This document shows positions 28,377 through 56,581 of a stretch of DNA of 64,000 bases, piece by piece; position 1 is the first letter of the stretch; each line of letters starts with the position of its first letter. The notes beneath the pieces were generated by a model. The model was not told the DNA's origin and did not search any database. It worked only from the letters and a program-made list of their open reading frames with translations. Source of the DNA: Seonamhaeicola algicola (GTDB taxonomy: Bacteria > Bacteroidota > Bacteroidia > Flavobacteriales > Flavobacteriaceae); NCBI RefSeq assembly GCF_007997385.1, contig NZ_VOSC01000025.1:680691-744690 (forward strand), read 5' to 3'. The position numbers and the translations under genes are program-made.

Positions 28377-28386
28377 AAAAGTAACA

Positions 28387-29841: not shown

Positions 29842-29844
29842 AAC

Positions 29845-39190: not shown

Positions 39191-42100
39191 GGCATCATAT
39201 GTCTTATTTAAGATATCAAATGTCTTGTTTTTTTAAGTTTGATTTTAAACGCAAACTTACAGTATTTGTATTAGCTACAGCAATACTTCAATTAAATGCA
39301 AATACATTTAAAAACGAAACGCCTTTAAAGGCAAAAGCAGAACTTCAACAACTTACAGTTAGCGGAACAGTATCTGACGCAACAGGTCCGCTTCCTGGTG
39401 TAAATATTGTTGTTAAAGGAACAACACAAGGAACACAAACAGATTTTGATGGAAATTATTCAATATCTGTAAACGCAAATGCAACTTTAGTATTTTCATT
39501 CTTAGGTTTTAAAACTAAAGAGGTTGCTGTTGGTAATACATCAACATTAAACGTAACTTTAGAAGAAGACGTAGCTGGTTTAGATGAAATTGTTGTTGTA
39601 GGCTATACTACGCGCAAACGTGGAGAGCTAACAGGTTCTGTTAGTACAGTAAAATCTAAAGATATTGAAAATACATCAAACAGAGATGTAGCAAAGTCAT
39701 TATCAGGTAGAGTATCAGGTTTAGTAGTTTCAGATAGAGGTGGTTACCCAGGGTCTAATGATTTTTCATTATTAATTAGAGGGGTTTCAACATTAAATAA
39801 CAATCAACCTCTTATATTAATTGATGGTGTGCAATCTGGTTTTGGTACATTCAATCAATTAGCACCTCAAGATATTGCCTCTGTAAGTGTTTTAAAAGAT
39901 GGAGCTGCCGCTATTTATGGTAATAGAGCTGCTAACGGTGTTATTATTGTAACTACAAAAAGAGGTAAATCAGGAAAACCAAAAATTAGTTTATCAACAT
40001 CATATAGTTTGTCATCTTTTTCTGTAACGCCAGATTTGATGAATTCTGAACAGTATGCTATTTATGAAAATGAAATTGCTGAAAGAAACGGTGCTACTTT
40101 GCCTTTTACCCAAGAACAAATTAACAATTTTGCATCAGGCGAAGGTGTTAGTACAGATTGGGCAGATTTAACGTTTGCAAATTCATCACCAGAAACGCGT
40201 AGTTCTGTGTCAATTTCAGGAGGAAGTGAAAAAACTAGCTATTTTGTTAGTGGTGATTTTATTGATAGACAGGGTATTTTTGCATCGGGCGATTTAAATT
40301 TCAAACAAACACAAGTAAGGTCTAATCTTGATATAAAATTAACCGATGATATAAAAGTTAGTGTTGACCTTTCAGGAAGATTTGCGGTTGATGAGCAACC
40401 AGGTGTAGATGCGGCTTTTATTTACAAACACATTTACACTAATCTTCCTACTGAAGTAGGCCAGTATTCTAATGGCTTATACGGTTGGGGTGGAGAAAAC
40501 GGTGCAAACCCAAGAGTAATGTCTAGCAGTCAATCTGGTTTTTTAGATAGAGATACTAATGATTTAAGAGGAAGAATAGCTTTAGATTGGAAGTTAGATA
40601 ATATTACTGAAGGATTAAGTGCCAATGCTTACGTTGGTTTACGCCGCATGAACAATAACACAAAATCTTGGTATACACCATGGACAATTTACAGATTTGA
40701 TGATGTTACCGGAGATTATAACCCTGAAACAGGGTTTTCACAACGTGGGCAGCAACGTATTTTAAGAGAAGATTTCTGGAAATTTGATGAAACATTAATT
40801 AATGCAACCTTAAGGTATAACAATACTTTTGGTAAACACTCTATTAATACATTTGTTGGTTTTGAACAGCAAACATCAGAAACTAGTAACTTTTGGGCTC
40901 AAAAACAAGATTTCCCAACACCAGATCATCCGTATCTATTCGCAGGAAGCTCTGAAGGTATAATAGCAAATGGTTCTGCTTCAGAAAGTGCTTTATTAAG
41001 TTATTTAGGATCTTTTGCTTATAATTTCGATTCTAAATATTATTTAGAACTAACCGTTAGGCGCGATGGTTCTAGTAATTTTGGTCCAGGAAAAAGGTTT
41101 GATACATTTTACAGTATTGGTGGGTCATGGGCATTAAATAAAGACTTTTTAAAAGATGTGTCATGGATTGATGCTTTAAACCTAAGAGCAAGCTACTCTG
41201 TAATGGGTAATGATAGAATTCAACCATTTCAATTCTTAACACGTTACTCATACGGTAACACAAACCCAGATTCAGCCAGACCAAACTATTATGTGTTTGG
41301 TGAAACAGGTGTAACATTTAATGGCTTTAGAAGTGATAATGTGCCAAACCCAAATGTAACTTGGGAAACTGCATACATGAGCAACTTTGCATTAAGCTTT
41401 GCATTGTTAGATAATAGATTAACAGGTGATGTTAATTACTTTAAGCAAAGACGCGAAGATATTTTAATACCAAGGTCTGGAAATGTAGCAGATTTTACAG
41501 GTATTAGATTTCCTGATGAAAACCTTGGGCGTGTAGATAGCCACGGTTTAGAAGTTACATTAGGTTGGGCAGACCAAGTTAATGACAACTTTAGCTACAA
41601 CTTAGGCTTTAATTTCACACAAGCTAAAAACGAAATTAAAACATTTCCGCAACCAGATAATGTACCAGATGCTTTAAGGCTAGAAGGTAGCCCAATAGGT
41701 TCATATGTTGTGTACCCAACTAATGGTATTTTTAGAGATCAGGCACAAGTTGATGCTACACCAGTTAAGTTAGCTGGAACCGTTGAAGGAGAGCCTATTT
41801 ATGTTGATACCAATGGTGATGATGTTATTGATGATAAAGATAGAGTAAGACGTTCAACATCTAATATTCCAGAAATTCAATATGGTATTTCAGGTGGTTT
41901 TAACTATAAAAACTGGAATTTTAACATGTTATTACAAGGGCAAGCTAAAGCTGAAGCCTTAGTATTTTTTGATCAAAATGGAGCAAAACCAACTTACGTT
42001 TTTGACCAAAGATGGACGCCTAACAACAGAAACTCAAGATACCCAAGAGCCTTCGGTTTAAATGATACTTACAGCGGAAGCCAAAGCGGTAATGCTGATA

Positions 42101-42360
42101 ATTTTCAAGGCGCAGATTTATGGCTGCATGATGCATCTTTTTTAAGATTAAAAGAAGTAGAAGTTGGTTACACAATACCTAAAGAGGTAGCAAAATTTGC
42201 CAGTATTAAGTTATTTGCCAGAGGGTTTAACTTGTTAACAATGTTCTCTGATATTGCAGATCTAGGCTTAGACCCAGAAGCTACAGGTTATAACAATTTT
42301 AGAGACGCTACTTATCCATCATTAAAGATGTATACGTTTGGGGTTAATTTCAATTTTTAA
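39169..42360 (+). CDS. susC: SusC/RagA family TonB-dependent receptor, pair 3
   Basis: Outer-membrane importer of 1063 residues. A long N-terminus (possible later starts at residues 11 or 18) precedes the signal anchor, followed by a CarboxypepD_reg-like domain (about 62-135), VVVVGYTTRKRGE, a plug domain (NQPLILIDGVQSG, VLKDGAAAIYGNRAANGVIIVTTKRG) and a barrel ending in FGVNFNF. The plug differs clearly from those of pairs 1 and 2, so it probably takes a different oligosaccharide. It forms an operon with susD, 10 bp downstream, and has no adjacent SusE-like gene. Its leader carries a hairpin and a possible antisense promoter. Confidence 0.95.
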   Translation: MNIQARARHHMSYLRYQMSCFFKFDFKRKLTVFVLATAILQLNANTFKNETPLKAKAELQQLTVSGTVSDATGPLPGVNIVVKGTTQGTQTDFDGNYSISVNANATLVFSFLGFKTKEVAVGNTSTLNVTLEEDVAGLDEIVVVGYTTRKRGELTGSVSTVKSKDIENTSNRDVAKSLSGRVSGLVVSDRGGYPGSNDFSLLIRGVSTLNNNQPLILIDGVQSGFGTFNQLAPQDIASVSVLKDGAAAIYGNRAANGVIIVTTKRGKSGKPKISLSTSYSLSSFSVTPDLMNSEQYAIYENEIAERNGATLPFTQEQINNFASGEGVSTDWADLTFANSSPETRSSVSISGGSEKTSYFVSGDFIDRQGIFASGDLNFKQTQVRSNLDIKLTDDIKVSVDLSGRFAVDEQPGVDAAFIYKHIYTNLPTEVGQYSNGLYGWGGENGANPRVMSSSQSGFLDRDTNDLRGRIALDWKLDNITEGLSANAYVGLRRMNNNTKSWYTPWTIYRFDDVTGDYNPETGFSQRGQQRILREDFWKFDETLINATLRYNNTFGKHSINTFVGFEQQTSETSNFWAQKQDFPTPDHPYLFAGSSEGIIANGSASESALLSYLGSFAYNFDSKYYLELTVRRDGSSNFGPGKRFDTFYSIGGSWALNKDFLKDVSWIDALNLRASYSVMGNDRIQPFQFLTRYSYGNTNPDSARPNYYVFGETGVTFNGFRSDNVPNPNVTWETAYMSNFALSFALLDNRLTGDVNYFKQRREDILIPRSGNVADFTGIRFPDENLGRVDSHGLEVTLGWADQVNDNFSYNLGFNFTQAKNEIKTFPQPDNVPDALRLEGSPIGSYVVYPTNGIFRDQAQVDATPVKLAGTVEGEPIYVDTNGDDVIDDKDRVRRSTSNIPEIQYGISGGFNYKNWNFNMLLQGQAKAEALVFFDQNGAKPTYVFDQRWTPNNRNSRYPRAFGLNDTYSGSQSGNADNFQGADLWLHDASFLRLKEVEVGYTIPKEVAKFASIKLFARGFNLLTMFSDIADLGLDPEATGYNNFRDATYPSLKMYTFGVNFNF

Positions 42361-42370
42361 AAAAAATAGT

Positions 42371-44068
42371 ATGAAAAATATAAAGCTAATTATAGTTTGT
42401 ATTATTACTGCTTGTGTAACATTTACAAGTTGTGATGATGTTTTAGATACAACAGCACTAGATGCCTTTGGTGAAGATTTAGTGTATAATGACCCAGATC
42501 AGGTTGAAAGACTTGTATATTCTGCATACAATAGCACAGAAAGTTGGGGCTTAAACAAAACCATTTGGTGGTCTAGAAGATATAATTTAGAAGCAGGTTC
42601 ATTTGAAGCTAAATTTAATTTTAGAGATTTAGATAGGTTACGTTTAAGAGGTAACGGTTGGAACTCTTTAAACATGGGTGATTTTGGAAATAAATGGAGA
42701 GACTATTACCAATTTATTAGAGAAATTAATGAGTTTCTAGATAGAATAGATAATAGCGGCGCTATGCAAGAAAACCCAGATAAAGTAAACAGTTTAAAAG
42801 CAGAAATGAAGTTTCTTCGTGCTAATATCTATTCAAAATTAATTGCATTACATGGTGGGGTACCATTGCTAGATAAAGCTCTTGGTTTAAATGATGAATT
42901 TAACATACCAAGAAATACCTATGAAGAGTGTGTAGATTTTATTGTTGCAGAGTTAAATGAAGTAGCAACAGTTTTACCAGCAACTAGAGATGCTGCAGAA
43001 TTTGGTAGAGCAACAGCATTAGCAGCATTAGCAGTAAAATCTCGTACGCTACTGTATGCGGCTAGTAAATTACATGACCCAAGTACAGAACCAAGTGGTC
43101 CAATGTATGATTATACTAAGGCAACAAAATGGCAAGATGCAGCTAATGCTGCTAAAGAAGTCATTGATATGGTAGGTGATAGAGATTTAATTGCCGTAAA
43201 TAGTGCAGAAGATTACAGAAAACTATTTTTAGAAGCTAATCAAGATATTCTTTTTGCAAGGCCATTTGGTGAGTTTTATGATTTTGGTTTAGATGTAAAT
43301 TCTTTACCAAACCAAACACAAGCTCCTAGTGGTTATGGTGGTTGGGCATTATCATCGCCAACACATAACTTTGCTTTAGAGTTTAATATGGCCGATGGAA
43401 CTACCACAAACGATGCTACTTATGATCCTGCAAACCCAAATGATAACAGAGAAATGCGTTATTATGCAAACTTAAATTACCAAGGAGCAATATTTAGGGG
43501 TAGAGCTGTTGATTATGCTTTAGATGTGAATGAAGTTAATGATGGTTTAGACTCTCCTAGAGGTTTAGGTAACGTGTTACATTCATCAAAAACAGGATAT
43601 AATATTCGTAAATTTCAAGATGAAAGCGTAGGATTAACAGATTTGTCACCGTCGCGCCCATACATACTGTACAGGTTGGCAGAAATATACTTAAACTATG
43701 CTGAAGCAAATGCAGAACTAGGTAATGATGCTATTGCTAGAACATATTTAAACAGAGTATCAACCAGAGCGCTTCAGCCAGAAATAACATCTAGTGGCGA
43801 TGCTTTAAAAGAAGCTATAAAAAGAGAAAGACGTATAGAGTTATGTTTTGAAAGACACAACTTTTTTGATGAAAGACGCTGGATGAACCCTGGTAACTTA
43901 GGTTTTGATATTAAAGGTTTAAAATGGACTAAAGATGCTGGTGGTAACTTGGTGCATGAAGAGTATACGGTAATAAACAGGCCTTGGTTTAACAAGCACT
44001 ACTATTTACCAATACCACAATTAGAAATAGATAAAGCACCTGCCCTTATTCAAAATGATGGGTATTAA
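42371..44068 (+). CDS. susD: SusD/RagB family lipoprotein, pair 3
   Basis: This SPII lipoprotein of 565 residues (cysteine at about 21, then DDVLDT, an acidic surface-export-type stretch) has SusD features: YLNYAEANAELG with GNDAIARTYLNRV, and RRIELCFERHNFFDERRW near the C-terminus. The ATG at 42371 is preferred because it begins a normal signal peptide; an in-frame TTG at 42338 would overlap susC. It pairs with the receptor upstream and is followed by a strong terminator. Confidence 0.93.
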   Translation: MKNIKLIIVCIITACVTFTSCDDVLDTTALDAFGEDLVYNDPDQVERLVYSAYNSTESWGLNKTIWWSRRYNLEAGSFEAKFNFRDLDRLRLRGNGWNSLNMGDFGNKWRDYYQFIREINEFLDRIDNSGAMQENPDKVNSLKAEMKFLRANIYSKLIALHGGVPLLDKALGLNDEFNIPRNTYEECVDFIVAELNEVATVLPATRDAAEFGRATALAALAVKSRTLLYAASKLHDPSTEPSGPMYDYTKATKWQDAANAAKEVIDMVGDRDLIAVNSAEDYRKLFLEANQDILFARPFGEFYDFGLDVNSLPNQTQAPSGYGGWALSSPTHNFALEFNMADGTTTNDATYDPANPNDNREMRYYANLNYQGAIFRGRAVDYALDVNEVNDGLDSPRGLGNVLHSSKTGYNIRKFQDESVGLTDLSPSRPYILYRLAEIYLNYAEANAELGNDAIARTYLNRVSTRALQPEITSSGDALKEAIKRERRIELCFERHNFFDERRWMNPGNLGFDIKGLKWTKDAGGNLVHEEYTVINRPWFNKHYYLPIPQLEIDKAPALIQNDGY

Positions 44069-44290: not shown

Positions 44291-46186
44291 ATGAAACAAA
44301 GTAAAAATACAGTGTGTCATTTACTATTAGTTGCATTACTTTTAATCATTATTACTACTAAAATAACAGCTCAAAATAATTCAAATAACAATAATTTAAT
44401 AGTTTTTTCAGAAGATGTAAACTTTCCGCGTCAAGAAAAAAACTTACGTAAATGGGATGCGCCGGTAGTTGCAGATTTAGATCAAGATGGCTATCAAGAT
44501 TTATTAATAAATGACCATGGTTTTGGTATTCAAGTACAATGGAATAATAACGGAAAATTTGCTAAACCTTATGATATTATTATGGGCGATTTACACGGTG
44601 TTTCTATTGCCGATTTTGATAAAGATGGGCACATAGAGGTTATCATGTCTCGCGGAGGTGGTTCGGGTAGCAATGCCAGAAACTCAAAAATGTACCGCGT
44701 AGTTGGGCGTGAGTTTGTTCCTCTACCAGATTTTAAAGAACCCTTAGCCTTAATGCGTGGGCGTACCGTAAAATTTATTGATGGTAATAATGATGGATAT
44801 TTAGATTTGTTAAACTTTGCGTTTCCCGATGCCTCAAAAAAAGGCGCTTCAGAAAATTATATCTATAAAAATAATACTAATGGGGAGCTTATATTACATG
44901 ATACTCTTCCAGCAATAAAAGGTAACGGACAAAAAACTCTAGTAACAGATTTTAATAATGATAATGTTTTAGATATTATTTTATACGGAAGTGGTAAAAC
45001 CACCGCTTTTAAAGGTAATGGCAATTTAACGTATACCGAAGTTACTAAAAATATTTTTCCTTTTGATATTGAGGAAACTACAAGTATAAGCGAAATAGAT
45101 TTTGATAATGATGGAGATTTTGATTTGTTTATAACCAGAGGCAAAAATGAATTTGAAAAAGGGGAAACCTTTTATAATGAAGCAGAAAAAACAGTAGGCT
45201 TTTTTACAACCAGAGGGCAATTTGAGTTTGATGATTTTGAAACGGGTGATGTTTTAAAGCTAGAAAATATGCAGTCTCAATGGCCAAATAATGATACTTA
45301 TTTTTTAGGTGAAACTGGTTATAGTTATGATTTTGAAGGCGAAACACATTCTGGTAAAAACATAAAATTAGTAAATAGTAACGCTTTAGGTTTTCCAGAT
45401 AATACAAATTACAAAGAAAAAAAGGGCTGGTATATTGGTTACGTTGGCAATAAAAAATGGCGTATTGCTGGTTATTTGTGGGCCCCTTCAACAGGCGTTG
45501 TTCACAATGTATCTAATTATAAAAAGCACAAGCATAATGAAGGGTTTAAAAACATTCTATTAGAAAATAAAAAAGGTGCATTTAAAGATGCATCACATAA
45601 ATTGAATACCATAAAAAAAGAACACGCTGTGGCTAGTGCTGTGGCAGATTTTAATAATGATGGCTTAAAAGATATTTTAGTAATAAAAAGAGGCGAGTTA
45701 GTTTATAAAAACGAAGCCTTGTTATACGTAAATACAAATAATAAAGGGTTTTATTTACAACAAAAGCATGGTGTAATTACAAATGATTTAGGTGCTTTAG
45801 GTATGGCTGTTGAGGTTGTAGATTTTGATGAAGATGGTAGTGTAGATGTGGTAATGGGTAATGAACGTGGTAAATGGCACTTGTTTAAAAATCTATCATC
45901 AAAAACATCAAATAATAAATTTATTAATATTAAAGTTGGTAAATCTCCTAAAAACAATGTGTCTCCGTTAGGCGCTAAAGTAACTATGTCTTCTTGTGGA
46001 GTAAATCAAACATACAGAATAGGCACTACAAATGCCCAATACTCACAAGGGCACAATAATTTAGTGCATTTTGGCCTTTCATCATGCAATAAATTAATAC
46101 ACGTTAAAGTTACCTGGATAAACGGTGAAGTAATAAACAAAACATTTAATTTGGCTAACAAAACGTTTTTTTTAGGAAACAAATGA
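44291..46186 (+). CDS. Secreted seven-repeat VCBS protein with C-terminal UnbV domain
   Basis: This 631-residue protein has a signal peptide (cleavage near ITAQ) and no lipobox or T9SS tail. Seven Asp-rich, Ca-binding VCBS/FG-GAP repeats are readable (DLDQDGYQDLLI, DFDKDGHIEVIM, DGNNDGYLDLLN, DFNNDNVLDIIL, DFDNDGDFDLFI, DFNNDGLKDILV, DFDEDGSVDVVM), consistent with a seven-bladed propeller. An ASPIC/UnbV-type domain (about 540-631) follows. It is a paralog of the product of 52312-54174 and shares its plan with the N-terminal half of the haloperoxidase fusion. It starts a cluster with GH2, sulfatase and GH16. No catalytic residues were recognised. A glycan-binding or scaffold role is possible; the function is unknown. 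Confidence 0.85.
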   Translation: MKQSKNTVCHLLLVALLLIIITTKITAQNNSNNNNLIVFSEDVNFPRQEKNLRKWDAPVVADLDQDGYQDLLINDHGFGIQVQWNNNGKFAKPYDIIMGDLHGVSIADFDKDGHIEVIMSRGGGSGSNARNSKMYRVVGREFVPLPDFKEPLALMRGRTVKFIDGNNDGYLDLLNFAFPDASKKGASENYIYKNNTNGELILHDTLPAIKGNGQKTLVTDFNNDNVLDIILYGSGKTTAFKGNGNLTYTEVTKNIFPFDIEETTSISEIDFDNDGDFDLFITRGKNEFEKGETFYNEAEKTVGFFTTRGQFEFDDFETGDVLKLENMQSQWPNNDTYFLGETGYSYDFEGETHSGKNIKLVNSNALGFPDNTNYKEKKGWYIGYVGNKKWRIAGYLWAPSTGVVHNVSNYKKHKHNEGFKNILLENKKGAFKDASHKLNTIKKEHAVASAVADFNNDGLKDILVIKRGELVYKNEALLYVNTNNKGFYLQQKHGVITNDLGALGMAVEVVDFDEDGSVDVVMGNERGKWHLFKNLSSKTSNNKFINIKVGKSPKNNVSPLGAKVTMSSCGVNQTYRIGTTNAQYSQGHNNLVHFGLSSCNKLIHVKVTWINGEVINKTFNLANKTFFLGNK

Positions 46187-46323
46187 TAAATTAACATAGC
46201 TTTTTCTAATAAAAACTATTTATAAAGACTATACATAAACTAGACAGCGCTTTTTTTAATATGAGTAAGAGTAAAAAATACTAAATCTTAATTAAATTGC
46301 ATACTCTTAAACTAAACTTTAAA

Positions 46324-48858
46324 ATGAACAAGCGTAATTTAACCTCACTTTTATTACTTACTTTTTGTTTTTTTACTTGGGCACAAGAAACAATAAACAC
46401 TAGTAATAGAGAAACAGATTTTAATTTTAATTGGAAGTTTCATTTACAAGATGATACAACACTTCCTACAACAATTCCAATAGCCGATACTAATTGGCGC
46501 GATATAAGATTACCGCATGATTTTGGTGTAGAGCAATCTTTTAGTAAAGAATTTGAAGGCTGTACAGGGTATTTACCAGGTGGTGTTGGGTTATATCAAA
46601 AGCATTTTAAACTACAAGGAAATACTGATAATAAAAATGTTTATGTGTTGTTTGATGGTGTATATAACAATGCTACTTTTTGGCTGAATGGAAAAAAATT
46701 AGGCGAAAACCCATACGGATACTCACCTGTTTATTTTGATTTAACACCGCATTTAAATAAAACATCAGAAAACATTTTAACAGTTCATGTAGATCATTCA
46801 AGGTATGCAGACTCGCGTTGGTATACTGGCGGAGGTATTTACAGAAATGTAAAATTAATTACTGTAAATAAATTACATATTCCTGTTTGGGGTACATTTA
46901 TAAAAACACCCGTTGCTACTAAAGAAAAAGCAACCATTAATTTAGAAACAACTGTTAATAATCAGTGGTCTAAAAAAAGCAAATTCACTTTAGTTACTAA
47001 AATCATTGATAATACAGGAAACGAGGTTGCATTAAAAGAAGATAAGCTAACGTTAAAAGGCAACAATAAACAAGTGTTTACGCAAGATTTTTCGGTGTTA
47101 AACCCCAAATTATGGGATACTAAAAACCCCAACATGTACAAAGCAGTAACTAGCATTGTGCATAAAGGAGAAGTGTTAGATACTTACACAACGCCTTTTG
47201 GTATTAGAAGTTTACGTTTTGATGCTAAATCGGGCTTTTATTTAAATGAAGAACCAACATTAGTTAAAGGTGTTTGTTTGCACCATGCTGCTGGTTTGGT
47301 TGGGGCTGCTGTTCCTAAAGGTGTTTGGAAACGTCGTTTACAAGCATTACAAGCCTGTGGTGTAAACGCTATTAGAACAGCTCATAACCCATATTCAGAA
47401 GAATTTTTAGAGTTATGTGATGAAATGGGAATTCTAGTTCAAAATGAATTTTTTGATGAATGGGATTATGCCAAAGATAAACGTAAAAATTACCATGATA
47501 GAAATACAGATTATATTACCCGCGGTTATGTTGAACATTTTCAAAAATGGGCAAAAAGTGATTTAACACGTACTATGTTGCGCGATAGAAATCACCCATC
47601 AGTATTTCAATGGAGTATTGGTAATGAAATTGAATGGACATATTTACATTACAGATATGATACTGGTTTCTGGAAAGATCCTAATAATCCACAAGCAGCT
47701 GGTGGTTATTGGGGTAGTGCGCCTATTTTATCACCTGAAGAAATTAAAGCTAATTATGATGCTGCTAAAAAAGGAGAACATATTTTAACTGAAACAGCAC
47801 ATAAATTAGCAAAATGGACAAGGGCTTTAGACCCTACCAGAGTATTAACAACCAATATGGTAGTGCCGCAAACAAGTATGGTTAGTGGGTATGCCAATGC
47901 TGTTGATATTTCAGGGTTTAGTTACCGAAATTTAGATATTGCTTGGGCTAATAAACATTGGCCAGATAGACATATAACCATTAACGAAAACCCAGGAACT
48001 TGGGATGATTGGAAGCAAGTACTAGAAAACCCTGGCGTGTTCAGTATTTTTATGTGGACAGGTATTGATTATATGGGTGAGCGTGATGGAGATTGGCCTG
48101 AAAAAAGTGGTTGGGGAGATTTATTAGACTTAGCTGGTTTTAAATATCAAGGTTGGAATTATTTTAAAAGCATTTGGGTAGATGAGCCTCATATTTCTAT
48201 TGGTACTTTACCCGTTGCTAAATCTGGTTTCAAGCAAACCGGAATTTCTGGCCAGCAATTACCAGAAAATAGTAACGCCTACAAATGGAGAGACTCTAAC
48301 ATGCATTGGAACTATGAAGAAGGTGAACAGGTAGTTGTAGAGGTGTGTTCAAACTACTCTATTGTAGAGCTGTTTTTAAATGGTCGTTCATTGGGTAGTA
48401 GAAGCATGTCTGAAAGTCCTGATAGGCTATTCCGTTGGACAATTCCATTTGAAGCAGGTACGCTTACAGCTAAAGCAGGTTTTGGTTCGCAAAAAGTTAC
48501 AGCTCAAATACAAACAACATCAAAACCAGTTGGCTTTACGCTAACAGCCGATAAAACAATCTTAGAGGCAAATGGGTATGATGTATCTCATTTTGTGGTA
48601 CAATTGGTTGATGCAAATGGTTTGCCAGTTAAAACTGAAAATGCAAAATTTGAGTTTGAAGTTGACGGTGATGCCAGAGTTTTAGGTGTAGATAATGGTG
48701 CAAGAAATAATATTCAAGATTTTAAATCTAATAGTTTAACAAGTGCAAAAGGTAGAGCTTTAATGATTTTACAATCTAACCTAAATCCTGGCACAGTTAA
48801 AGTAAAAGCTAAGTCCGAAGGTTTTGAAACACAAGAAATAACACTGCAAATAAAGTAG
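46324..48858 (+). CDS. GH2 family beta-galactosidase-like hydrolase
   Basis: Periplasmic GH2 enzyme of about 844 residues with a signal peptide ending near TWAQ. The order is an N-terminal sugar-binding jelly roll, an Ig-like domain, a TIM barrel and C-terminal Ig-like domains. The acid/base is Glu435 (QWSIGNEIEW) and the probable nucleophile Glu555 (ITINENPGTWDDW). A typical GH2 stretch RTAHNPYSEEFLELCDEMG is present. The ATG at 46324 is preferred over an in-frame TTG at 46297 because it directly begins the signal peptide. Release of terminal beta-linked galactose from desulfated oligosaccharides is the likely role. Glucuronidase or mannosidase activity is possible within GH2. Confidence 0.9.
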   Translation: MNKRNLTSLLLLTFCFFTWAQETINTSNRETDFNFNWKFHLQDDTTLPTTIPIADTNWRDIRLPHDFGVEQSFSKEFEGCTGYLPGGVGLYQKHFKLQGNTDNKNVYVLFDGVYNNATFWLNGKKLGENPYGYSPVYFDLTPHLNKTSENILTVHVDHSRYADSRWYTGGGIYRNVKLITVNKLHIPVWGTFIKTPVATKEKATINLETTVNNQWSKKSKFTLVTKIIDNTGNEVALKEDKLTLKGNNKQVFTQDFSVLNPKLWDTKNPNMYKAVTSIVHKGEVLDTYTTPFGIRSLRFDAKSGFYLNEEPTLVKGVCLHHAAGLVGAAVPKGVWKRRLQALQACGVNAIRTAHNPYSEEFLELCDEMGILVQNEFFDEWDYAKDKRKNYHDRNTDYITRGYVEHFQKWAKSDLTRTMLRDRNHPSVFQWSIGNEIEWTYLHYRYDTGFWKDPNNPQAAGGYWGSAPILSPEEIKANYDAAKKGEHILTETAHKLAKWTRALDPTRVLTTNMVVPQTSMVSGYANAVDISGFSYRNLDIAWANKHWPDRHITINENPGTWDDWKQVLENPGVFSIFMWTGIDYMGERDGDWPEKSGWGDLLDLAGFKYQGWNYFKSIWVDEPHISIGTLPVAKSGFKQTGISGQQLPENSNAYKWRDSNMHWNYEEGEQVVVEVCSNYSIVELFLNGRSLGSRSMSESPDRLFRWTIPFEAGTLTAKAGFGSQKVTAQIQTTSKPVGFTLTADKTILEANGYDVSHFVVQLVDANGLPVKTENAKFEFEVDGDARVLGVDNGARNNIQDFKSNSLTSAKGRALMILQSNLNPGTVKVKAKSEGFETQEITLQIK

Positions 48859-49004
48859 TAGTTTGTTAAGGTATAACTTTTAATTGAAACCAAAATTGTA
48901 ACAAAACAAGTTAAAATAATATAAGCTTAAGGTAACTAAAGCACTGTTTTAAGGGTTTATTTTTTCGTAATTTGAAGGATGTTATTTAATAAATTTCCTT
49001 GATT

Positions 49005-50654
49005 ATGAAATTCCTTAAAATAGTGCTTTTGTTTGCTATTATAGTTGCGTGTAAATCTAAAGAAGAGCCTAGAGAAACACCAGCTAAAAAACCAAATATT
49101 CTTTTTTTAGCTATTGATGATTTAAGGCCAGAAATTGGTGCTTACGGATCTGAAATAGCAATAACTCCAAATTTTGATAAGTTTGCATCTCAAGGGTTAT
49201 TATTTAATAATGCCTACTGCCAAGAACCTATTTGTAGTCCTTCACGCGCTAGTTTAATGACGGGGGCAAGACCCGAAACTATCAATGTTATTGAAAACTT
49301 CACATATTTTAGAGAAGCTAATCCAGATATTGTAACCTTGTCTCAGCACTTCAAAAATAATGGTTATGAAACTGTTCATACAGGAAAAATATATCATAAA
49401 CCAGCTTGGGCAGACCAAGAAAAATCATGGAGTAGAGAACCGGCTTATGATAAAATGACAATAAAACCAAGTAATACACCAGGCGGTTACGCATTGCCAG
49501 AAAACCAAGAATTTTCAAAAAAAGCAACGGCAGAAGTTATTGCTAAGTATGGGCCAAATGCACCAAGAAATGGCTTAGGTAAAGGGCCTGCTTATGAAAA
49601 AGCCGATGTGGAAGATACCTTTTATGAAGATGGTTATAATGCTGAATTAGCTATTGCTACAATGAAAGATATGCTTCAAAAAAATCCAAATAAACCGTTT
49701 TTTTTAGGCATGGGTATGAAAAAACCGCATTTAAACTGGTTAGCACCAAAAAAATATTGGGATTTATACAACCCAGAAGATATTGAGTTAGCCACATTAA
49801 CAGAAGCTCCTGAAAACGGAGCAACCATGGGTTTACATCCGTCTTTTGAGCTTCGCGCTAGATACGGTATACCTAAAAAAGGGCCTATTAAAGATGATCA
49901 AGCTAGAATTTTAAAACATGCATACTTAGCTTGTGTAAGCTACATTGATGCCCAAATTGGTAAAATGATTGATGCACTTGATGAAGCAGGAGTTAGAGAT
50001 AATACCATTATAATTATTTGGAGTGATCATGGTTTTCATTTAGGCGATATGGGTATTTGGTGTAAAGCTACCAATTATGAAGTTGCTACACGTGTTCCAT
50101 TAATGATCTGGACACCAAATATGCCAAAAGATACACGCGGGGTAAAATCTAACGCTTTGGTTGAGTTGGTTGATATGTATCCAACCTTATGTGAGTTAGC
50201 TGGTTTAGAAAAACCAGAACATTTAGAAGGTTATAGTTTTGCACCACTTTTAAATAACCCTAAAAAAGCATGGAAACAAGCCGCGTTTAGTCAATTTCCA
50301 ACGCCTGCATTACGTGAGTGGGCAGCAAACCCTCTATCACAAGGTATGCGAGAAACCTATTTTGGGCCATTAATTGAAGAGGTAGAAGATAAAATTAAAG
50401 CACAAATGGGAGATAAATGGAATAGAGATTTATTTGAAAATAACTTAATGGGTTATGCTATGCGTACTGAAAACTATAGGTTTATTGTATGGAAAGACTA
50501 TATAAATAAAAATACTGAACCATTATTTTATGAGTTGTATGACCATAAAACAGACCCAGGTGAAACTAAAAATATAGCCAATGAAAATCCAGAACTAGTA
50601 AAACAATTATTAGCACAATTTAATAAGGGTTGGAAAGGCAACCTTCCGAAGTAA
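49005..50654 (+). CDS. S1 family sulfatase, iduronate-2-sulfatase-like lipoprotein
   Basis: This formylglycine sulfatase of about 549 residues has lipobox cysteine at about 16, followed by KSKEEP, so it is probably periplasmic. Motifs: LAIDDLRPEIG (metal site), EPICSPSR with Cys77 as the formylglycine precursor, HTGKIYHKPAW in place of the GKWHLG of the other sulfatases here, and WSDHGFHLGDMGIWCK. Those features match the iduronate-2-sulfatase-like branch, so its target sulfate differs from the other four sulfatases. The ATG at 49005 is used; an in-frame TTG lies two codons earlier. The GH16 gene follows 17 bp after its stop. Confidence 0.92.
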   Translation: MKFLKIVLLFAIIVACKSKEEPRETPAKKPNILFLAIDDLRPEIGAYGSEIAITPNFDKFASQGLLFNNAYCQEPICSPSRASLMTGARPETINVIENFTYFREANPDIVTLSQHFKNNGYETVHTGKIYHKPAWADQEKSWSREPAYDKMTIKPSNTPGGYALPENQEFSKKATAEVIAKYGPNAPRNGLGKGPAYEKADVEDTFYEDGYNAELAIATMKDMLQKNPNKPFFLGMGMKKPHLNWLAPKKYWDLYNPEDIELATLTEAPENGATMGLHPSFELRARYGIPKKGPIKDDQARILKHAYLACVSYIDAQIGKMIDALDEAGVRDNTIIIIWSDHGFHLGDMGIWCKATNYEVATRVPLMIWTPNMPKDTRGVKSNALVELVDMYPTLCELAGLEKPEHLEGYSFAPLLNNPKKAWKQAAFSQFPTPALREWAANPLSQGMRETYFGPLIEEVEDKIKAQMGDKWNRDLFENNLMGYAMRTENYRFIVWKDYINKNTEPLFYELYDHKTDPGETKNIANENPELVKQLLAQFNKGWKGNLPK

Positions 50655-50671
50655 AAAAAAGAAAAGAAAAA

Positions 50672-52309
50672 ATGAAAACCAACAAACTAAAACACCACTT
50701 ATACTTTGTATTAGCAGTATGCTTTACACATGCTTTATTAGCTCAAAACCCGTTTACCGACCCTTCAAACAGTCAAGGTTGGATTTTAAATACAACTATT
50801 AGTGACGAATTTAATACTCCAGAATTAGATAAATCTAAATGGTGGATACTAGGTGAAAATGGAGATTACAGGAATAAATGGAAAGGTAGGGCTCCAGGGC
50901 AGTTTGCACCTCATAACGTTAAAGTTGAAGGGGGAGAATTGGTTTTAACCAGCCAATGGGAGCCAACATTTACATTTGCTAATGAAAAACAAGATGGTAC
51001 TTACTACGGAGGTACAGCAACTAGCGCAGATAATAGTAAACCAATTACTCAGGCTTGTGTTATGAGTGAAACCTATTTTAGGTATGGCTATATGGAAATT
51101 AGAGCTAAAATAGCCGATGCTCCTGTTACTTCTGCTTTTTGGACAACAGGATACCATTCTGAAATTGATATGGTTGAAAATTACGGTAAAAGACCTATTG
51201 GGAACCCAGAAGGTACCAACGCAGTTATAGAAAGAAAGCAAAGAACCAATATGATTAATTGGGATCCAGATATTCCTTCAAATCATCAAAATTGGAAAGT
51301 TGAAAATGATATGGGCGTTAGGTTAGCTGAAGATTATCATATTTACGGTTTTGAATGGGATAAAGATTATATAAGAACCTATTTTGATGGTAATTTATTA
51401 AGGGAAGTAACACGTCAATCTTTAGAGGCTAATAATCAATGGAGGCACGATTACCCACAAGAGCTTTGGTTAGATTCTGAGGTTTTCTATTGGTACGGTT
51501 TACCGGCTCAGGCAGACTTAACTTCACCAACAGCGTTTAAAATAGATTATGTGAGAATATGGCAAAAAAACATAACCACACCAAATTTTAATGCACTAGG
51601 TTTTGAAGGCCCTTTTTACTTTCAAGGGCGAAGTCAAAATTGGTGGAATGGGCCAGCAGCTAAATGGCGTATAAAAAATGAAAAATCAGCATCTGGTGAT
51701 TTTAGTTTACGTTTTCAACATTCAGGAACATTTTCAGGTAATTACACAACATTTACACCTTACGGGTCATTAAATTTACCTGCAGGCAGTAATCAAGTTA
51801 ACTTTAAGGTTTGGATAGACCCAAGTACATCAATAAGTTCATTAAGAATGATTTTAGAAAACCCATGGACGGTAATTGATATTGATGTTTCTGGCGTACA
51901 AAAAGGGCAATGGGTAGAAGTATCAAAAATATTTAGCCGTAGTGCCGCTTCAAACCAAAGTATAACAAACGGAGATAGAATTAGATTTATGCTACAATCG
52001 GCCAATGTTTCGGGGTCTCAAGCTTTGTTTTATGTAGATGATATAACATTTGCCAATACACTTAGTACAGCAAAAAATAATACTGTAAATTTCTCAATTT
52101 ACCCAAACCCAACCCAAAATAGCTTGCATATTAATTCGCCATTAAATGGTACCATTACTGTTTTCAATATGGCAGGTAATTTGGTTAAAAGTTTTCAAAA
52201 AGAAACAAGGGTAAAAAAAGTTGATGGTTTAAATTTACCATCAGGGGTGTATTTGTTTAAAATTCAGTCGGGTAACACATTTGCTACATCAAAAGTTGTA
52301 ATTAATTAA
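50672..52309 (+). CDS. T9SS-secreted GH16 endo-galactanase with C-terminal binding module
   Basis: This 545-residue protein has a signal peptide (cleavage near LLAQ). The GH16 jelly roll (about 25-300) carries the ExDxxE motif as Glu164-Ile-Asp166-Met-Val-Glu169. A beta-sandwich binding-like module follows (about 305-470, with SQNWWNGPAAKW), then a T9SS type A tail (YPNPTQNSLHI). WKGRAPGQF and FRYGYMEIRAKIADAPVTSAFW are shared with the GH16 encoded at 24048-25052, so both belong to one subfamily. As the secreted member it is the best candidate for the first attack on polymer outside the cell. The start at 50672 avoids overlap with the sulfatase gene. Subfamily and linkage are inferred. Confidence 0.9.
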   Translation: MKTNKLKHHLYFVLAVCFTHALLAQNPFTDPSNSQGWILNTTISDEFNTPELDKSKWWILGENGDYRNKWKGRAPGQFAPHNVKVEGGELVLTSQWEPTFTFANEKQDGTYYGGTATSADNSKPITQACVMSETYFRYGYMEIRAKIADAPVTSAFWTTGYHSEIDMVENYGKRPIGNPEGTNAVIERKQRTNMINWDPDIPSNHQNWKVENDMGVRLAEDYHIYGFEWDKDYIRTYFDGNLLREVTRQSLEANNQWRHDYPQELWLDSEVFYWYGLPAQADLTSPTAFKIDYVRIWQKNITTPNFNALGFEGPFYFQGRSQNWWNGPAAKWRIKNEKSASGDFSLRFQHSGTFSGNYTTFTPYGSLNLPAGSNQVNFKVWIDPSTSISSLRMILENPWTVIDIDVSGVQKGQWVEVSKIFSRSAASNQSITNGDRIRFMLQSANVSGSQALFYVDDITFANTLSTAKNNTVNFSIYPNPTQNSLHINSPLNGTITVFNMAGNLVKSFQKETRVKKVDGLNLPSGVYLFKIQSGNTFATSKVVIN

Positions 52310-52311
52310 AT

Positions 52312-54174
52312 ATGAATAAAAACATTAAATATAACTTATGGTTGTTGTTTGGTCTGTCTTTTTTTGCCTGTAAAGCACAACAAATTCAAGATGTTTCATT
52401 TTTTGAAGATTCTGAAGTTGTATCTTTTGAAGATAGGTCTCGAAGGAAATTTGATAACGCAGTTATAGCAGATTTAGACCAAGATGGTTGGCTAGATTTG
52501 TTATTAATAGAGCATTCTCGTAGAGTAGAATTGTATTGGAATAATACAGGTAAATTTGAAAAGGGTGAACCATTTATTTTTGGTGATACTCATGGCATGA
52601 CGGTTGCCGATTATAATAATGATGGCTTATTAGACGTATTGGTGCAACCCGGAGGTGGTGATGGTAAAAACCCAAGAAAATTAAGGGCTTATACCATAAA
52701 TTTAGATAGAACTATTTCAAAAGAAACAGAGTTTAAACATTTTGAAGCTAGCCGTGGACGTGCTGTAAAGTTTTTTGATGCCAATAATAATAGCGAGTTA
52801 GATTTAATTTTATCGGCATTTCCAGCAAAAAATAAATATGAAAAAGCTCATTTTTTATATAGAAAAGACACACCTAAATACTTCGCTTTTGAAAAATTAT
52901 TACCCTACGCCGATAGGTTTAATATGAGAGCCACAATTACAGATTTTAATAATGATAACATTAAAGATTTTCTGTTTTATGGCGGAAGTAAAATAATTGC
53001 CGTTCAAGGTGAAGACAATTTTGGTTTTACCGATGTAACTAATAATGTTTTGGGCAATATTTCAAATACAAACCTAGTAAGCAGTGTTTCTGAAATAGAT
53101 TTTGATAATGATGGAGATTTTGATGTGTTTCTAACCAGAGCAAAACACCCGTTTGATTCTGAAGCAGATTACAATACTGAAGATAAAACATTTTATTTTT
53201 TAGCCAGACGAAAACCTTTTCAACATGATAGTATAAAAGTAAATGGTAACTTAAAAATTGAAAACCTTCAAATGGCGTATCCGCATTTTGATGTATTTAT
53301 TGGTGCTAATAAAACACTTTTTAAGCGTACCAAAGATCAACACGGGCACCATGATTTAATACTTACGCAACAAGAAGCAAAAGGTTGGCCAAATGATACT
53401 TCAAAAAAAGGGCTATACATAGGTTATTTAGGTAATGGTTATTGGCGTATTGGTGGTTTTACTAATGCTCCAACAACAGCGGTTATTCACAACGTAATTG
53501 AAGCACCTAAAACCATTAAACTTAGAGCGCTTCCGGCTAAGTTGTTAGAAAATAGAAACGGAAAGTTTGTTGATGTTACTGCACAATTAGGTATTAATAT
53601 TAATGAACAAACAACAAGTACAGCTGTAGGCGATTTTAATAATGATGGGTGGGCAGATATGTTTGTGGTACGTTATGGAAAATCGGCTTCGGTAATTGAG
53701 CAATTCTTATATTTAAATAATAATGGTAAAGCATTTCAGCTTTCAAAAACTCACGGCATAGTTAGAAATGAGCGCGGAAGCACCGGCATGGGAGCAGAAG
53801 CGTTTGATTTTGATAAAGATGGCGATTTAGATATTATTTATGCCAATGAACGTGGTAAATGGCACTTATTTACCAATAAATTAAAACAAAAAAATAACTA
53901 CGTAGTTGTAAATGTTGGTAGTTCGCCATCGGGTAAAGCTTCAGCTATTGGCGCTGTTTTGAGGTTACAAGTAAAAAACAAAATTTATAAACGTGTAGTT
54001 GGGGCTACATCATCATCGTATTCTCAGGGACTTAATACATATTTGCATGTTGGTTTGGGTGATGAAACCACTGTTGATGCTGCCAAAATAACTTGGAGTA
54101 ATGGAGAAACAACTTCCTTTGAAATAAAAAAATTAAATAAAACCTATTTTGTAGGTAAATCAAAAAAACAATAA
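52312..54174 (+). CDS. Seven-repeat VCBS protein with C-terminal UnbV domain, lipoprotein
   Basis: This 620-residue protein is a paralog of the product of 44291-46186. It has a probable lipid anchor at about Cys20 (FFACKAQQ). Seven VCBS/FG-GAP repeats can be read (DLDQDGWLDLLL, DYNNDGLLDVLV, DANNNSELDLIL, DFNNDNIKDFLF, DFDNDGDFDVFL, DFNNDGWADMFV, DFDKDGDLDIIY), then an ASPIC/UnbV domain (about 530-620). Like its paralog it carries a central SKKGLYIGYLGNGYWRIGGF segment rich in aromatics, a candidate ligand site. The ATG starts 2 bp after the GH16 stop, so the two are translationally close. No enzyme motif was seen. Confidence 0.85.
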   Translation: MNKNIKYNLWLLFGLSFFACKAQQIQDVSFFEDSEVVSFEDRSRRKFDNAVIADLDQDGWLDLLLIEHSRRVELYWNNTGKFEKGEPFIFGDTHGMTVADYNNDGLLDVLVQPGGGDGKNPRKLRAYTINLDRTISKETEFKHFEASRGRAVKFFDANNNSELDLILSAFPAKNKYEKAHFLYRKDTPKYFAFEKLLPYADRFNMRATITDFNNDNIKDFLFYGGSKIIAVQGEDNFGFTDVTNNVLGNISNTNLVSSVSEIDFDNDGDFDVFLTRAKHPFDSEADYNTEDKTFYFLARRKPFQHDSIKVNGNLKIENLQMAYPHFDVFIGANKTLFKRTKDQHGHHDLILTQQEAKGWPNDTSKKGLYIGYLGNGYWRIGGFTNAPTTAVIHNVIEAPKTIKLRALPAKLLENRNGKFVDVTAQLGININEQTTSTAVGDFNNDGWADMFVVRYGKSASVIEQFLYLNNNGKAFQLSKTHGIVRNERGSTGMGAEAFDFDKDGDLDIIYANERGKWHLFTNKLKQKNNYVVVNVGSSPSGKASAIGAVLRLQVKNKIYKRVVGATSSSYSQGLNTYLHVGLGDETTVDAAKITWSNGETTSFEIKKLNKTYFVGKSKKQ

Positions 54175-54199: not shown

Positions 54200-56581
54200 A
54201 TGAAAAGAATAGTTGTAAAATGCTTTTTAAGTGTGCTGTTATTCGCTAGTTTTTCTAGCTGTAATAATGCTAAAGAAGAAGCTACATTAGAGCAACAAGC
54301 ACTAAATAAAATTAGCGAACTAGAAACTTTAATGGATAAAGCCAAAAGTAAATCTATTGATGTTGCCCGTGAAGAAACAACACTATGGTTTGCCAATCAA
54401 TTTTTAAAATTTGCTAATTGGGATGAAAATAACCAAGAAGCCATAACTAGACTTTTTGGTTATGAGCGTTACTATGCGCCAAAAAAAGATTCTTTAGCCA
54501 AAGCATTACCAAATTTTGAGCGCCAAAAAGTAATTGAAATTTTAGATAAAAGTATTGCAGATTTAAATAAAGAACTTAATGGCGAAACTAAGCGCCGTCC
54601 TGTAAATAAAGTAGATTGGCAAAATGCTAAAGCTGCAGATAATATGTTTGTAAGTAATGGTAAACCATCATTTCCCTACGACTATTTTTCAAAAACCGTG
54701 GGGCAGCCCTTAACAAATACCGATGTTTATAATGATCATTTAGGAGCATTATATCATGGAGGCGAAAACTTATATCCTATAGATCATGACCGTGCAATAA
54801 ATTCATTTTTATTAAATGAAGATGGTACTTTTAATGAAGAATTGATGAAGGAACTCACAGGAATTCCTGATACAAACATAGGTTTTTTATACTACTGGTC
54901 TATGGGTATTCCAGAATGGGTAGAAAAGAAAGAACCTGAAATTAGAAAAGGGCGTTCTTTATTTACTGGTTTTGATATTGATAACCCTTTGGCACGAGAT
55001 TTATGGGGCAAAATTATTAGAAAAACAGGTACACTTACAAAAGGTAAAAAAGTTACTGAATTAGGCTATGTTTTTGCAAATGAACCACATTGGTTTTCAG
55101 AAAAAGATCATTGGACTTACAGGTATAAAGAAATGAATGGTATTTCAAAATACACCTTAAATAATTTTAGAGCATGGTTAAAAAATAAATACAATAATAA
55201 CTTAGCAACGCTAAACTCAAACTGGGAAACTACATTTAAAAGTTTTGATGCTGTTACAATTGAAATTCCTATTGATACAGCTTTAAGAGGAAAACCAATT
55301 TGGTTTGATTGGTGTCGATACAACATGCACCGTAGTACAAATTGGTTTACATTTATGCAAAATGAACTACATACCGTAAACCCAGAAGCAGATACGCATA
55401 TAAAATTATTTCCAAGAACGTTTTATGAAGATGCTCGTTCACACGGAATGGATTTTGAAGCATTAACAGAACTCACAACCATGATTGGGCATGATGCCAA
55501 AGCATTAGGTAGTGCTAGTATTCGTCCGCACATAAAATCTGATTGGACCGCTCAATATGCTTATAAATGGGATGGAATGGCTATTTTACACGATTTTCTA
55601 GAATCTGTAGCACCAAATAAAATCAATGTGAATTCTGAGTCTCATTTCTTATCATCTGGCATGTGGAGAGATTTAGACACTAGAACAAGTTATGTACGTA
55701 ACGTGTATTGGTTGGCAACTTTAATGGGTATGGATGCTAATACCGGTTGGTTTTGGGCACGTGACCCAGACGGATCTCCAGAAGATAGGTTGGAAGGCGA
55801 ATTAAATTTCTTTGACCCAGGTTTAGGTGGCGCCTACGCAGGATCAAACAATATGCAGCCACATGTAACTAATGAAGTTACACAGGTTATGTATGACTTA
55901 AATTCTTTTTCTGAAGAAATTATTGAATTACGTAAACAACCCCGCCCGTTACGTTTATTTTATTCTGAAACATCAGCAATAAACACTAATAAATACATGA
56001 CGGAAACTACTAAACTATATAAATCGTTGTTTTTTGAAGGGTTGTCACTTGGTTTTGTCACCAAAAATATCATTGAAAAGCAAGATAATAACACCTGGAA
56101 TACCGTAGTTGTTTATAATACAAAGTATGTAACTAATAATGAGTTTGCTGCATTACAAACATATTTAAATAATGGTGGTACTGTTATTTTAGATTCAGAA
56201 GAAAGCCTTTCAATGGATGAATATGGTAAAAAACGTAGCCAAAAATTACAAGCAGGTAATGGTAAACTAATTGTTTTAGAAAATGCCAGTATTTCTGAAA
56301 TTAAATTAAAAGCTTTAGCTGAAGTAGCTAATGTTATGCCAGATGTTGTTGTAACCTCAGATAATGGGCAAGATTTTAAAACTACAGTATCGCGTGTTGT
56401 TAAACAAAATGATGGCTCGTATTTGGTTAATTTACTAAACGTTGGTAACAATACAGCAAAAATTACATTATCATTAAAATCAGGAACCATAAATTCTATT
56501 AAAAATTTAATGACAGGAAATACAGTTAATACAACGTTTAACCTAGCTTCAGAAGACGTGTTATTACTTGAAGTAAAATAA
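54200..56581 (+). CDS. GH42-like clan GH-A glycoside hydrolase, lipoprotein
   Basis: This 793-residue lipoprotein (cysteine at about 21) has a TIM barrel resembling GH42 beta-galactosidases. FDIDNPLARDLW precedes the acid/base Glu295 (YVFANEPHW); WLKNKYNNNLATLNSNWETTF is close to the GH42 pattern for that region; and Glu480 (NVNSESHFLSSG) is the probable nucleophile. A trimerization-like alpha/beta domain (about 600-720) and a C-terminal beta domain follow. An N-terminal helical stretch of about 100 residues is unusual for GH42. The related GH167 family, reported on kappa-carrageenan, is an alternative; I cannot separate them by eye. It lies between a VCBS/UnbV protein gene and a GH16 gene, 14-26 bp apart, so it is surely part of the operon. 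Confidence 0.8.
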   Translation: MKRIVVKCFLSVLLFASFSSCNNAKEEATLEQQALNKISELETLMDKAKSKSIDVAREETTLWFANQFLKFANWDENNQEAITRLFGYERYYAPKKDSLAKALPNFERQKVIEILDKSIADLNKELNGETKRRPVNKVDWQNAKAADNMFVSNGKPSFPYDYFSKTVGQPLTNTDVYNDHLGALYHGGENLYPIDHDRAINSFLLNEDGTFNEELMKELTGIPDTNIGFLYYWSMGIPEWVEKKEPEIRKGRSLFTGFDIDNPLARDLWGKIIRKTGTLTKGKKVTELGYVFANEPHWFSEKDHWTYRYKEMNGISKYTLNNFRAWLKNKYNNNLATLNSNWETTFKSFDAVTIEIPIDTALRGKPIWFDWCRYNMHRSTNWFTFMQNELHTVNPEADTHIKLFPRTFYEDARSHGMDFEALTELTTMIGHDAKALGSASIRPHIKSDWTAQYAYKWDGMAILHDFLESVAPNKINVNSESHFLSSGMWRDLDTRTSYVRNVYWLATLMGMDANTGWFWARDPDGSPEDRLEGELNFFDPGLGGAYAGSNNMQPHVTNEVTQVMYDLNSFSEEIIELRKQPRPLRLFYSETSAINTNKYMTETTKLYKSLFFEGLSLGFVTKNIIEKQDNNTWNTVVVYNTKYVTNNEFAALQTYLNNGGTVILDSEESLSMDEYGKKRSQKLQAGNGKLIVLENASISEIKLKALAEVANVMPDVVVTSDNGQDFKTTVSRVVKQNDGSYLVNLLNVGNNTAKITLSLKSGTINSIKNLMTGNTVNTTFNLASEDVLLLEVK

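Follow-up and report, generated by a model that had tools for sequence, protein, structure and literature searches.

Two exported VCBS/UnbV propellers of a Seonamhaeicola algicola carrageenan locus as tentative candidates for a missing anhydrogalactosidase

The analysis of 64,000 nucleotides of Seonamhaeicola algicola DNA (contig NZ_VOSC01000025.1, positions 680,691 to 744,690 of the forward strand; hereafter the window) reveals two paralogous genes, VCBS-A and VCBS-B, whose core family is rare, spans two phyla and is tied to carrageenan loci. The window itself is a carrageenan locus, with SusC/SusD pairs, sulfatases, a GH2, three GH16 genes, a DagA-type GH127, a GH167, genes of the DauA/DauB type and a major facilitator superfamily (MFS) transporter (Table 1). 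The original prediction had offered a glycan binder, a scaffold or a new enzyme class for the pair; the comparative evidence leans to an enzyme, and we tentatively rank first the reading that VCBS-A and VCBS-B are exported enzymes acting on the 3,6-anhydro-D-galactosyl linkages of carrageenan oligosaccharides, with a binder next. The same loci are home to DagA (GH127) and DagB (GH129-like) of Zobellia, which are unrelated to the pair by the searches run and for which alone activity has been demonstrated (PMC5698469).

The co-occurrence with galactan polysaccharide utilization loci (PULs), on which the original prediction had staked itself, proved strong. Among 397 Flavobacteriaceae genomes, 15 contain a match at E ≤ 1e-30, S. 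algicola itself included, and 13 a core match (E ≤ 1e-220), the two non-core genomes (best E 1.8e-94 and 4.3e-101) carrying divergent proteins in open frames of about 1,000-1,160 amino acids (aa). The DagA-type GH127 (E ≤ 1e-245; next best genome 2.6e-160) is present in 26 of the 397, and the core family occurs in 13 of these 26 and in none of the 371 others (Fisher 1.3e-17; 2.0e-16 without the S. algicola genome), with E cut-offs that were chosen after the score gaps had been seen. VCBS-A lies at most 6.3 kb from a GH127 gene in 12 of the 13 core genomes, the two genes being on separate contigs in the remaining one (G246; G and L numbers are our handles for genomes and loci), and relatives of the sulfatase between VCBS-A and VCBS-B were found in the fetched neighbourhood of all 12 other core Flavobacteriaceae genomes. 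VCBS-B is present in seven of the 13 and missing from the other six. In 246 genomes of the family of Colwellia echini (hereafter the C. echini sample), a core match (E ≤ 1e-180) was found in 22 and a match at E ≤ 1e-100 in 36; all 18 genomes with a GH127 at E ≤ 1e-200 also carry the core family, and one genome with a weaker GH127 (G811; 39%, E 2.6e-131) has no core family. A sample of the phylum gave matches at E ≤ 1e-40 in 2 of 395 genomes, S. algicola and one member of the same family (G119). That generic CRTAC1-like proteins stand in the cluster by chance or hitchhiking is therefore scarcely credible: FG-GAP/UnbV proteins are indeed common, with six UnbV matches in the S. algicola genome and generic matches from many phyla, and one VCBS-B-type copy (G036, locus L056) lies away from any recognised locus gene, but the core family is rare, locus-bound and marked by invariant residues of its own, and the co-occurrence counts speak against chance.

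Both predicted open reading frames (ORFs) were recovered, framing the GH2, sulfatase and GH16 genes as had been described, and most of the features attributed to them were borne out. VCBS-A and VCBS-B are 39% identical across 596 aligned positions, the D-x-[DN]-x-[DNS] loop occurs exactly seven times in each (against a mean of 0.01 and a maximum of 1 after shuffling), and both exceed the Pfam cut-offs for PF13517 FG-GAP_3 and PF07593 UnbV, the latter only just in VCBS-A (24.5 bits against a cut-off of 23.4; 36.2 in VCBS-B). With DxDxDG-type Ca loops between strands A and B and seven blades, they fall within the VCBS/FG-GAP superfamily, and the Pfam scan of the two gave no GH domain, no homology to GH127 or GH129 and no SusD domain. 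A common aromatic-rich central segment had also been described and did not hold up, as Phe, Trp and Tyr are enriched in VCBS-A alone (17.1% versus 9.0% elsewhere, in the segment as we cut it; VCBS-B 11.7% versus 12.4%). The segment does have a common conserved sequence, including a Trp present in 65 of 65 aligned members, and loop spacing indicates an insert of about 125 residues between loops 5 and 6. The N-terminus of VCBS-A is hydrophobic and ends in ITAQ (residues 25-28), and VCBS-B has a lipobox-like LSFFAC (residues 15-20), so that both appear to be exported. By a hydrophobicity score devised for this analysis and used in place of SignalP, export is likewise predicted for 48 of 49 further core sequences, the single exception being a broken frame; of 14 divergent sequences, 2 are export-positive over the stretch that was scored, and most of the remainder have N-terminal extensions, with the start taken as given. 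A crude lipobox pattern makes 25 of 63 members resemble lipoproteins.

The AlphaFold models of the pair are fair to good (VCBS-A pLDDT 82.6, pTM 0.86; VCBS-B 80.8 and 0.83). Foldseek places murine CRTAC1 (9etn) first for both, at E of about 1e-18 and 12-13% identity, followed by integrin propellers, and a profile search of solved structures likewise gives 9etn as the best relative (E 8.4e-18). The CRTAC1/ASPIC-UnbV type is equally a seven-bladed Ca-loop propeller with a UnbV domain, whereas the insert of about 125 residues and the pocket residues described below are specific to the galactan family. We know of no enzymatic activity of CRTAC1, and this best match in sequence and fold would suit a non-catalytic structural partner (scaffold, chaperone or anchor) that holds the pathway's lipoprotein enzymes. 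So would the position of VCBS-B directly beside a GH16 or GH167 gene, seen in the window and again in 7 of the 19 B loci examined, some of them truncated at an end. Such a partner would have no need for seven invariant pocket residues that are rare in generic relatives, and VCBS-A and VCBS-B lie 70 kb apart in C. echini, with VCBS-B missing from six core Flavobacteriaceae genomes; we regard a purely structural role as improbable. Among the 50 fold matches listed, aldos-2-ulose dehydratase (4a7k, 4a7y, 4a7z) appears for both models, and the fungal sugar-binding lectins 2bwm, 4tqm and 5mb4 for VCBS-A; neither the dehydratase nor lectins of the PVL type gave a sequence match at E ≤ 0.01 in the solved-structure profile search. 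Both are VCBS-superfamily propellers like the pair, remote from it, and the lectins are characterised by a GW motif in loop DA' and a sugar bound between blades (PMC8023676).

By scanning contigs for relatives and taking the best 80 of 382 related loci, full-length relatives at 27-49% were found in six loci (L068-L073, L069 being from Algibacter), and generic CRTAC1-like matches came from many phyla. Most of the other loci match the propeller of the haloperoxidase fusion at the start of the window better than they match the pair. This fusion had been grouped with VCBS-A and VCBS-B, and it does contain UnbV and seven loops (six by the strict pattern and one more at residue 43), but the close kinship fails: a profile built on the pair matches it only in fragments (best E 1.4e-8), and the link was dropped because its propeller is generic. 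In sequence, the galactan-locus family is a separate branch of the wider CRTAC1/ASPIC-UnbV family, which has mainly Ca-loop and UnbV residues in common with the generic members, the pocket residues and the insert being its own.

The family was delimited as 65 members, comprising the window's two and 63 distinct sequences of 64 that pass 150 bits and 480 aa in the loci searched, a set that leaves out shorter pieces such as the split VCBS-B copies of G383 and G138. By a tally of polar and aromatic residues, H68, D92, H94, R148, R150, W378, N414, N469 and W517 (VCBS-B numbering) lie outside the Ca loops and are identical in 65 of 65; K46 is kept in 59. Seven family members were also aligned with 66 generic CRTAC1-like proteins, 450-900 aa in length. 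N414 and N469 are common in the generic set too (57 and 61 of 66), whereas H68, D92, H94, R148, R150, W378 and W517 are each found in 0-3 of the 66, never two of them in the same generic protein. Strand order, that is topology and not coordinates, would put H68, D92, H94, R148 and R150 within or adjacent to the D-A and B-C loops of blades 1-3, opposite the Ca loops. In an unrooted tree, whose splits are read as such, three groups separate, namely clade A (support 0.983), clade B (support 0.997) and a set of 14 divergent members (support 1.0), and clades A and B each contain both Bacteroidota and Gammaproteobacteria, so the duplication is older than at least one transfer between the phyla. Divergent members in L047 and L071 adjoin genes with an Agarase_CBM domain, two of three with a GH42-like barrel, an architecture we take to be GH86-like. 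These neighbours suggest a possible role of the wider family on further galactans of red algae; next to the other divergent members, no GH86-like neighbours were recognised in the fetched DNA.

The conserved pocket is mostly basic (K46, H68, H94, R148 and R150), and it could bind sulfate in a lectin-like periplasmic or outer-membrane binder of carrageenan oligosaccharides that hands neocarra-oligosaccharides to GH16, GH167, sulfatases or transporters. This reading is possible and ranks below an enzymatic role. It draws on the sugar-binding fungal lectins among the known VCBS propellers (PMC8023676), which recur among the fold matches of VCBS-A, on the many lipoprotein-like members, and on the way in which the family accompanies GH127 without replacing it in the C. 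echini sample (18/18). However, the pocket is identical in all 65 members, down to 27-32% identity and across loci with different carbohydrate-active enzymes, including the GH86-like neighbours of L047 and L071, a conservation stricter than expected of a binder with changing ligands, and such a binder does not predict the exclusion of DagB described next.

A DagB query, the L180 protein that matches 5opq ('3,6-anhydro-D-galactosidase') over its full length at 1424.6 bits, was used to search 51 genomes, namely 26 Flavobacteriaceae with a carrageenan PUL (CarPUL), 22 from the C. echini sample and three to which named loci belong. DagB was found in eight, all Flavobacteriaceae and all without the core family: none of the 13 family-positive Flavobacteriaceae CarPUL genomes has it, compared with 8 of the 13 family-negative ones (one-sided p 8e-4; by genus 0/13 versus 6/10, p 0.002), and it is absent from the 25 genomes of the C. 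echini sample and the named loci. Moreover, G334 and G180 carry the window's unexported type of GH127 at 89-90% with DagB in place of the core family, so that one appears to have been exchanged for the other in otherwise similar settings. This mutual exclusion suggests that the two perhaps perform the same step. PF11308 (GH129) was tried as a DagB marker and rejected, as it matched 3 of the 51 genomes (G180:C76, G129:C3 and G974:C6) and detects DagB weakly, in two of the eight DagB genomes, the G974 match being another GH129. GH167 was likewise not decisive as a determinant (at ≥ 50% identity in 6/13 family-positive versus 3/13 family-negative genomes, p 0.41; with paralogues of 37-41% included, 11/13 versus 5/13, p 0.04); in the C. 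echini sample, GH167 or a GH167-like gene (E ≤ 1e-40) is present in 19 of the 22 family-positive genomes. Export scores of the GH127 copies are bimodal (≤ 0.31 or ≥ 2.12) across 46 genomes, 27 flavobacterial and 19 others, and the 22 family-positive genomes of the C. echini sample divide into 5 with an exported GH127, 13 with unexported copies only and 4 with none.

Some carrageenan-using Gammaproteobacteria are reported by two groups to lack any known anhydrogalactosidase (PMC6923384, PMC6952198). C. echini grows on kappa-carrageenan, and no GH127 or GH129 was found in it (PMC6952198), while growth on kappa-carrageenan is also reported for Pseudoalteromonas sp. FUC4 (PMC6923384). Our sequence search found neither GH127 (E ≤ 1e-40) nor DagB (E ≤ 1e-50) in C. 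echini A3 or FUC4, and both carry VCBS-A and VCBS-B. In C. echini A3, the VCBS-A homologue lies one ORF from a GH167-like gene, and the VCBS-B homologue lies between GH16 genes, followed by two sulfatases, a GH167 and two further genes; by gene order, these places would correspond to Ce338 and Ce385-Ce392 of its CAR PUL. For the missing step, Christiansen et al. 2020 suggested Ce362/Ce383 (PMC6952198), and Hettle et al. 2019 named three P. fuliginea PS47 propellers of 6 or 7 blades (EU509_08830, 08835 and 08875) as candidates for an alpha-1,3-(3,6-anhydro)-D-galactosidase; these are conserved among the CarPULs of Pseudoalteromonas, and two of them are upregulated on carrageenan (PMC6923384).

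EU509_08830 is the orthologue of VCBS-A and EU509_08875 that of VCBS-B, as judged by gene order with FUC4 and P. carrageenovora as stand-ins. The published order in PS47 is GH167 (08810), GH16A (08815), S1_NC (08820), S1_19A (08825) and 08830, and then GH16B (08870) and 08875 (PMC6923384); the FUC4 and P. carrageenovora proteins, 45-49% identical to the window's pair, fall in the respective clades and follow S1_19A and GH16B. The window differs in part, with VCBS-A after SusD and VCBS-B after another GH16. The description of the pair as an undescribed component accordingly stands only in that a function has so far just been proposed, since its Pseudoalteromonas orthologues were named as candidates in 2019 (PMC6923384). 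These were likewise presented as exported propellers of kappa/iota-carrageenan loci, in Pseudoalteromonas without GH127/129, whereas VCBS-A and VCBS-B come from a flavobacterium that has GH127 and from a family in two phyla. A 2025 paper still refers to 'an unknown beta-neocarrabiosidase' (PMC12549532), and we found no functional test of the VCBS-A/B family in the open-access literature, most subscription papers lying outside that search.

The third candidate, EU509_08835, fits an SMP-30-like propeller by gene order. Genes of this type stand near or next to VCBS-A or VCBS-B at L160:12486-13592, L167:9747-10874, L152:15562-16659 and L041:8777-9808; the loci searched gave 13 matches, including the query gene twice (L160, L068) and flavobacterial ones in L041 and L054, and none of the 33 window genes compared was matched. 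VCBS-A, VCBS-B and the SMP-30-like protein are among the FUC4 CarPUL ORFs that have a match in the 100 kb fetched from C. echini and could be assigned to no known degradation step, as are a multiheme cytochrome, a TonB receptor and an ORF of 632 aa. A multiheme cytochrome is found in gammaproteobacterial carrageenan/galactan loci (L161:5989-8145, L152:7612-9792 and, with TPR repeats, L071:6212-8374).

In the reading ranked first, VCBS-A and VCBS-B would be two ancient paralogues from a CRTAC1-like family that became specific to red-algal galactan loci, exported by a signal peptide or as lipoproteins, and periplasmic or anchored in the outer membrane. A pocket on the upper face, from blades 7 to 3, would be lined by H68, D92, H94, R148, R150 and E/D513 and, together with the central insert (W378), would handle the substrate, which may be the linkage of 3,6-anhydro-D-galactose at the non-reducing end of desulfated carrageenan oligosaccharides, from beta-neocarrabiose upwards. 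VCBS-A and VCBS-B would then do the job performed in other species by DagB or an exported GH127, and the paralogues might divide the substrates between them, for instance according to chain length or 2-sulfation. The exclusion of DagB and the presence of the family in GH127-less degraders fit an anhydrogalactosidase, and aldos-2-ulose dehydratase indicates that a VCBS propeller can be an enzyme (PMC8023676).

Several observations weigh against this reading. D92 is the sole invariant carboxylate outside the Ca loops in the 65 members, and position 513, E or D in 63, is Q in two. The superpositions are loose (root-mean-square deviation, rmsd, of 10 Å or more), so the fold matches of the models indicate a VCBS propeller and little beyond, and the after-the-fact choice of cut-offs has been mentioned above. 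The exclusion of DagB could stem from two inherited locus types, for which the genus counts correct only partly, and five genomes (G002, G011, G237, G320 and G377) have neither the core family nor DagB, one of them (G320) having no known exported anhydrogalactosidase at all. When exported anhydrogalactosidases are taken as a class (exported GH127 at ≥ 50% identity, or DagB), the exclusion is weak, at 7/13 family-positive versus 12/13 family-negative Flavobacteriaceae CarPUL genomes (one-sided p 0.037, two-sided 0.073), with an exported GH127 in seven of the family-positive ones; G974, family-positive in the C. echini sample, has a Pfam GH129 match (E 1.4e-142) other than DagB. A simple non-orthologous replacement of GH127 was rejected as a full account, because the two are frequently present in one genome (18/18 in the C. 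echini sample, 13/26 in Flavobacteriaceae). For the PS47 candidates, no soluble active protein was obtained and the activity of cell fractions was inconclusive (PMC6923384). P. carrageenovora, whose plasmid carries both VCBS-A and VCBS-B, is reported, as strain 9T, to be unable to live on kappa- or iota-carrageenan alone (PMC6923384; PMC6262041), and this phenotype and the regular presence with GH127 argue that the family is no mere stand-in. Furthermore, the SMP-30-like propeller shows much of the same pattern in GH127-less genomes and is a competitor. The family might work in a separate compartment or on chains of a different length; it might also be a binder or some other enzyme.

A different enzyme would be a lyase, dehydratase or isomerase on galactan oligosaccharides, or one removing a rarer substituent, needed alongside GH127; the finding of the family with GH127 in most genomes that have the latter would fit this. 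Aldos-2-ulose dehydratase in the fold lists of both models, an invariant His/His/Asp/Arg/Arg set that could hold a metal and a divergent clade with members in other galactan loci point the same way. Nevertheless, this alternative appears rather unlikely, as the dehydratase fold aligns poorly (TM of 0.39-0.42 by query length, with an rmsd of 16-18 Å) and the accessible portions of PMC5698469, PMC6923384 and PMC6952198 describe no such missing step.

The features of the locus are collected in Table 1. The names DauA and DauB follow gene order and Table 1 of PMC5698469. The MFS sugar transporter adjoins VCBS-A in several relatives. The gene directly downstream of VCBS-B is a GH167 by its solved relatives, although Pfam gave no match for this ORF. 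The PhoD-like protein, for which the sequence search gave no solved relative, recurs near or beside family members in L042, L047, L054, L055, L057, L162 and L163, at 33-80% identity.

Table 1. Genes of the carrageenan locus and the haloperoxidase fusion, in window coordinates.
Feature	Position	Strand	Basis
VCBS-A, seven-bladed VCBS/UnbV propeller, 631 aa	44291..46186	+	Ca loops, Pfam, clade A in tree
VCBS-B, paralogue of VCBS-A, 620 aa	52312..54174	+	Ca loops, Pfam, clade B in tree
GH2, beta-galactosidase-like	46297..48858	+	
S1-type sulfatase	48999..50654	+	
GH16 with type IX secretion system (T9SS) sorting tail, directly upstream of VCBS-B	50630..52309	+	
GH167, directly downstream of VCBS-B	54200..56581	+	6ptm E 2.7e-152; 9whd 'GH167 glycoside hydrolase' E 1.7e-145
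GH16	56595..57536	+	
PhoD-like protein, 610 aa	57655..59487	+	
GH127, DagA type, no signal peptide by hydrophobicity score	36864..38843	+	
SusC/SusD pair, directly upstream of VCBS-A	39169..42360 and 42338..44068	+	
MR_MLE (DauB-like), aldehyde dehydrogenase (DauA-like), HpcH aldolase	27225..30609	+	
MFS sugar transporter	30649..32208	+	
Haloperoxidase fusion: vanadium-haloperoxidase-like C-terminal half, generic UnbV propeller, T9SS tail	225..4211	-	

Overall, the distribution in two phyla, the exclusion of DagB and the invariant pocket are new, none of them having been found in the open-access literature, and they make the open question of the missing anhydrogalactosidase testable. The distribution and the pocket together give a short list of candidates, with VCBS-A first, and the flavobacterial orthologues offer alternatives where the Pseudoalteromonas proteins were not obtained in active form. 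It is conceivable, if doubtful, that these proteins form a new family of glycosidases built on the seven-bladed VCBS propeller and are the missing beta-neocarrabiosidase of GH127/GH129-less degraders in two phyla, displaced by DagB in Zobellia-type loci and with a divergent sister clade acting on agar- or porphyran-type galactans. If true, an enzymatic function of VCBS-A and VCBS-B would add a catalytic role to the CRTAC1-like propellers, to our knowledge a large family with few assigned functions.

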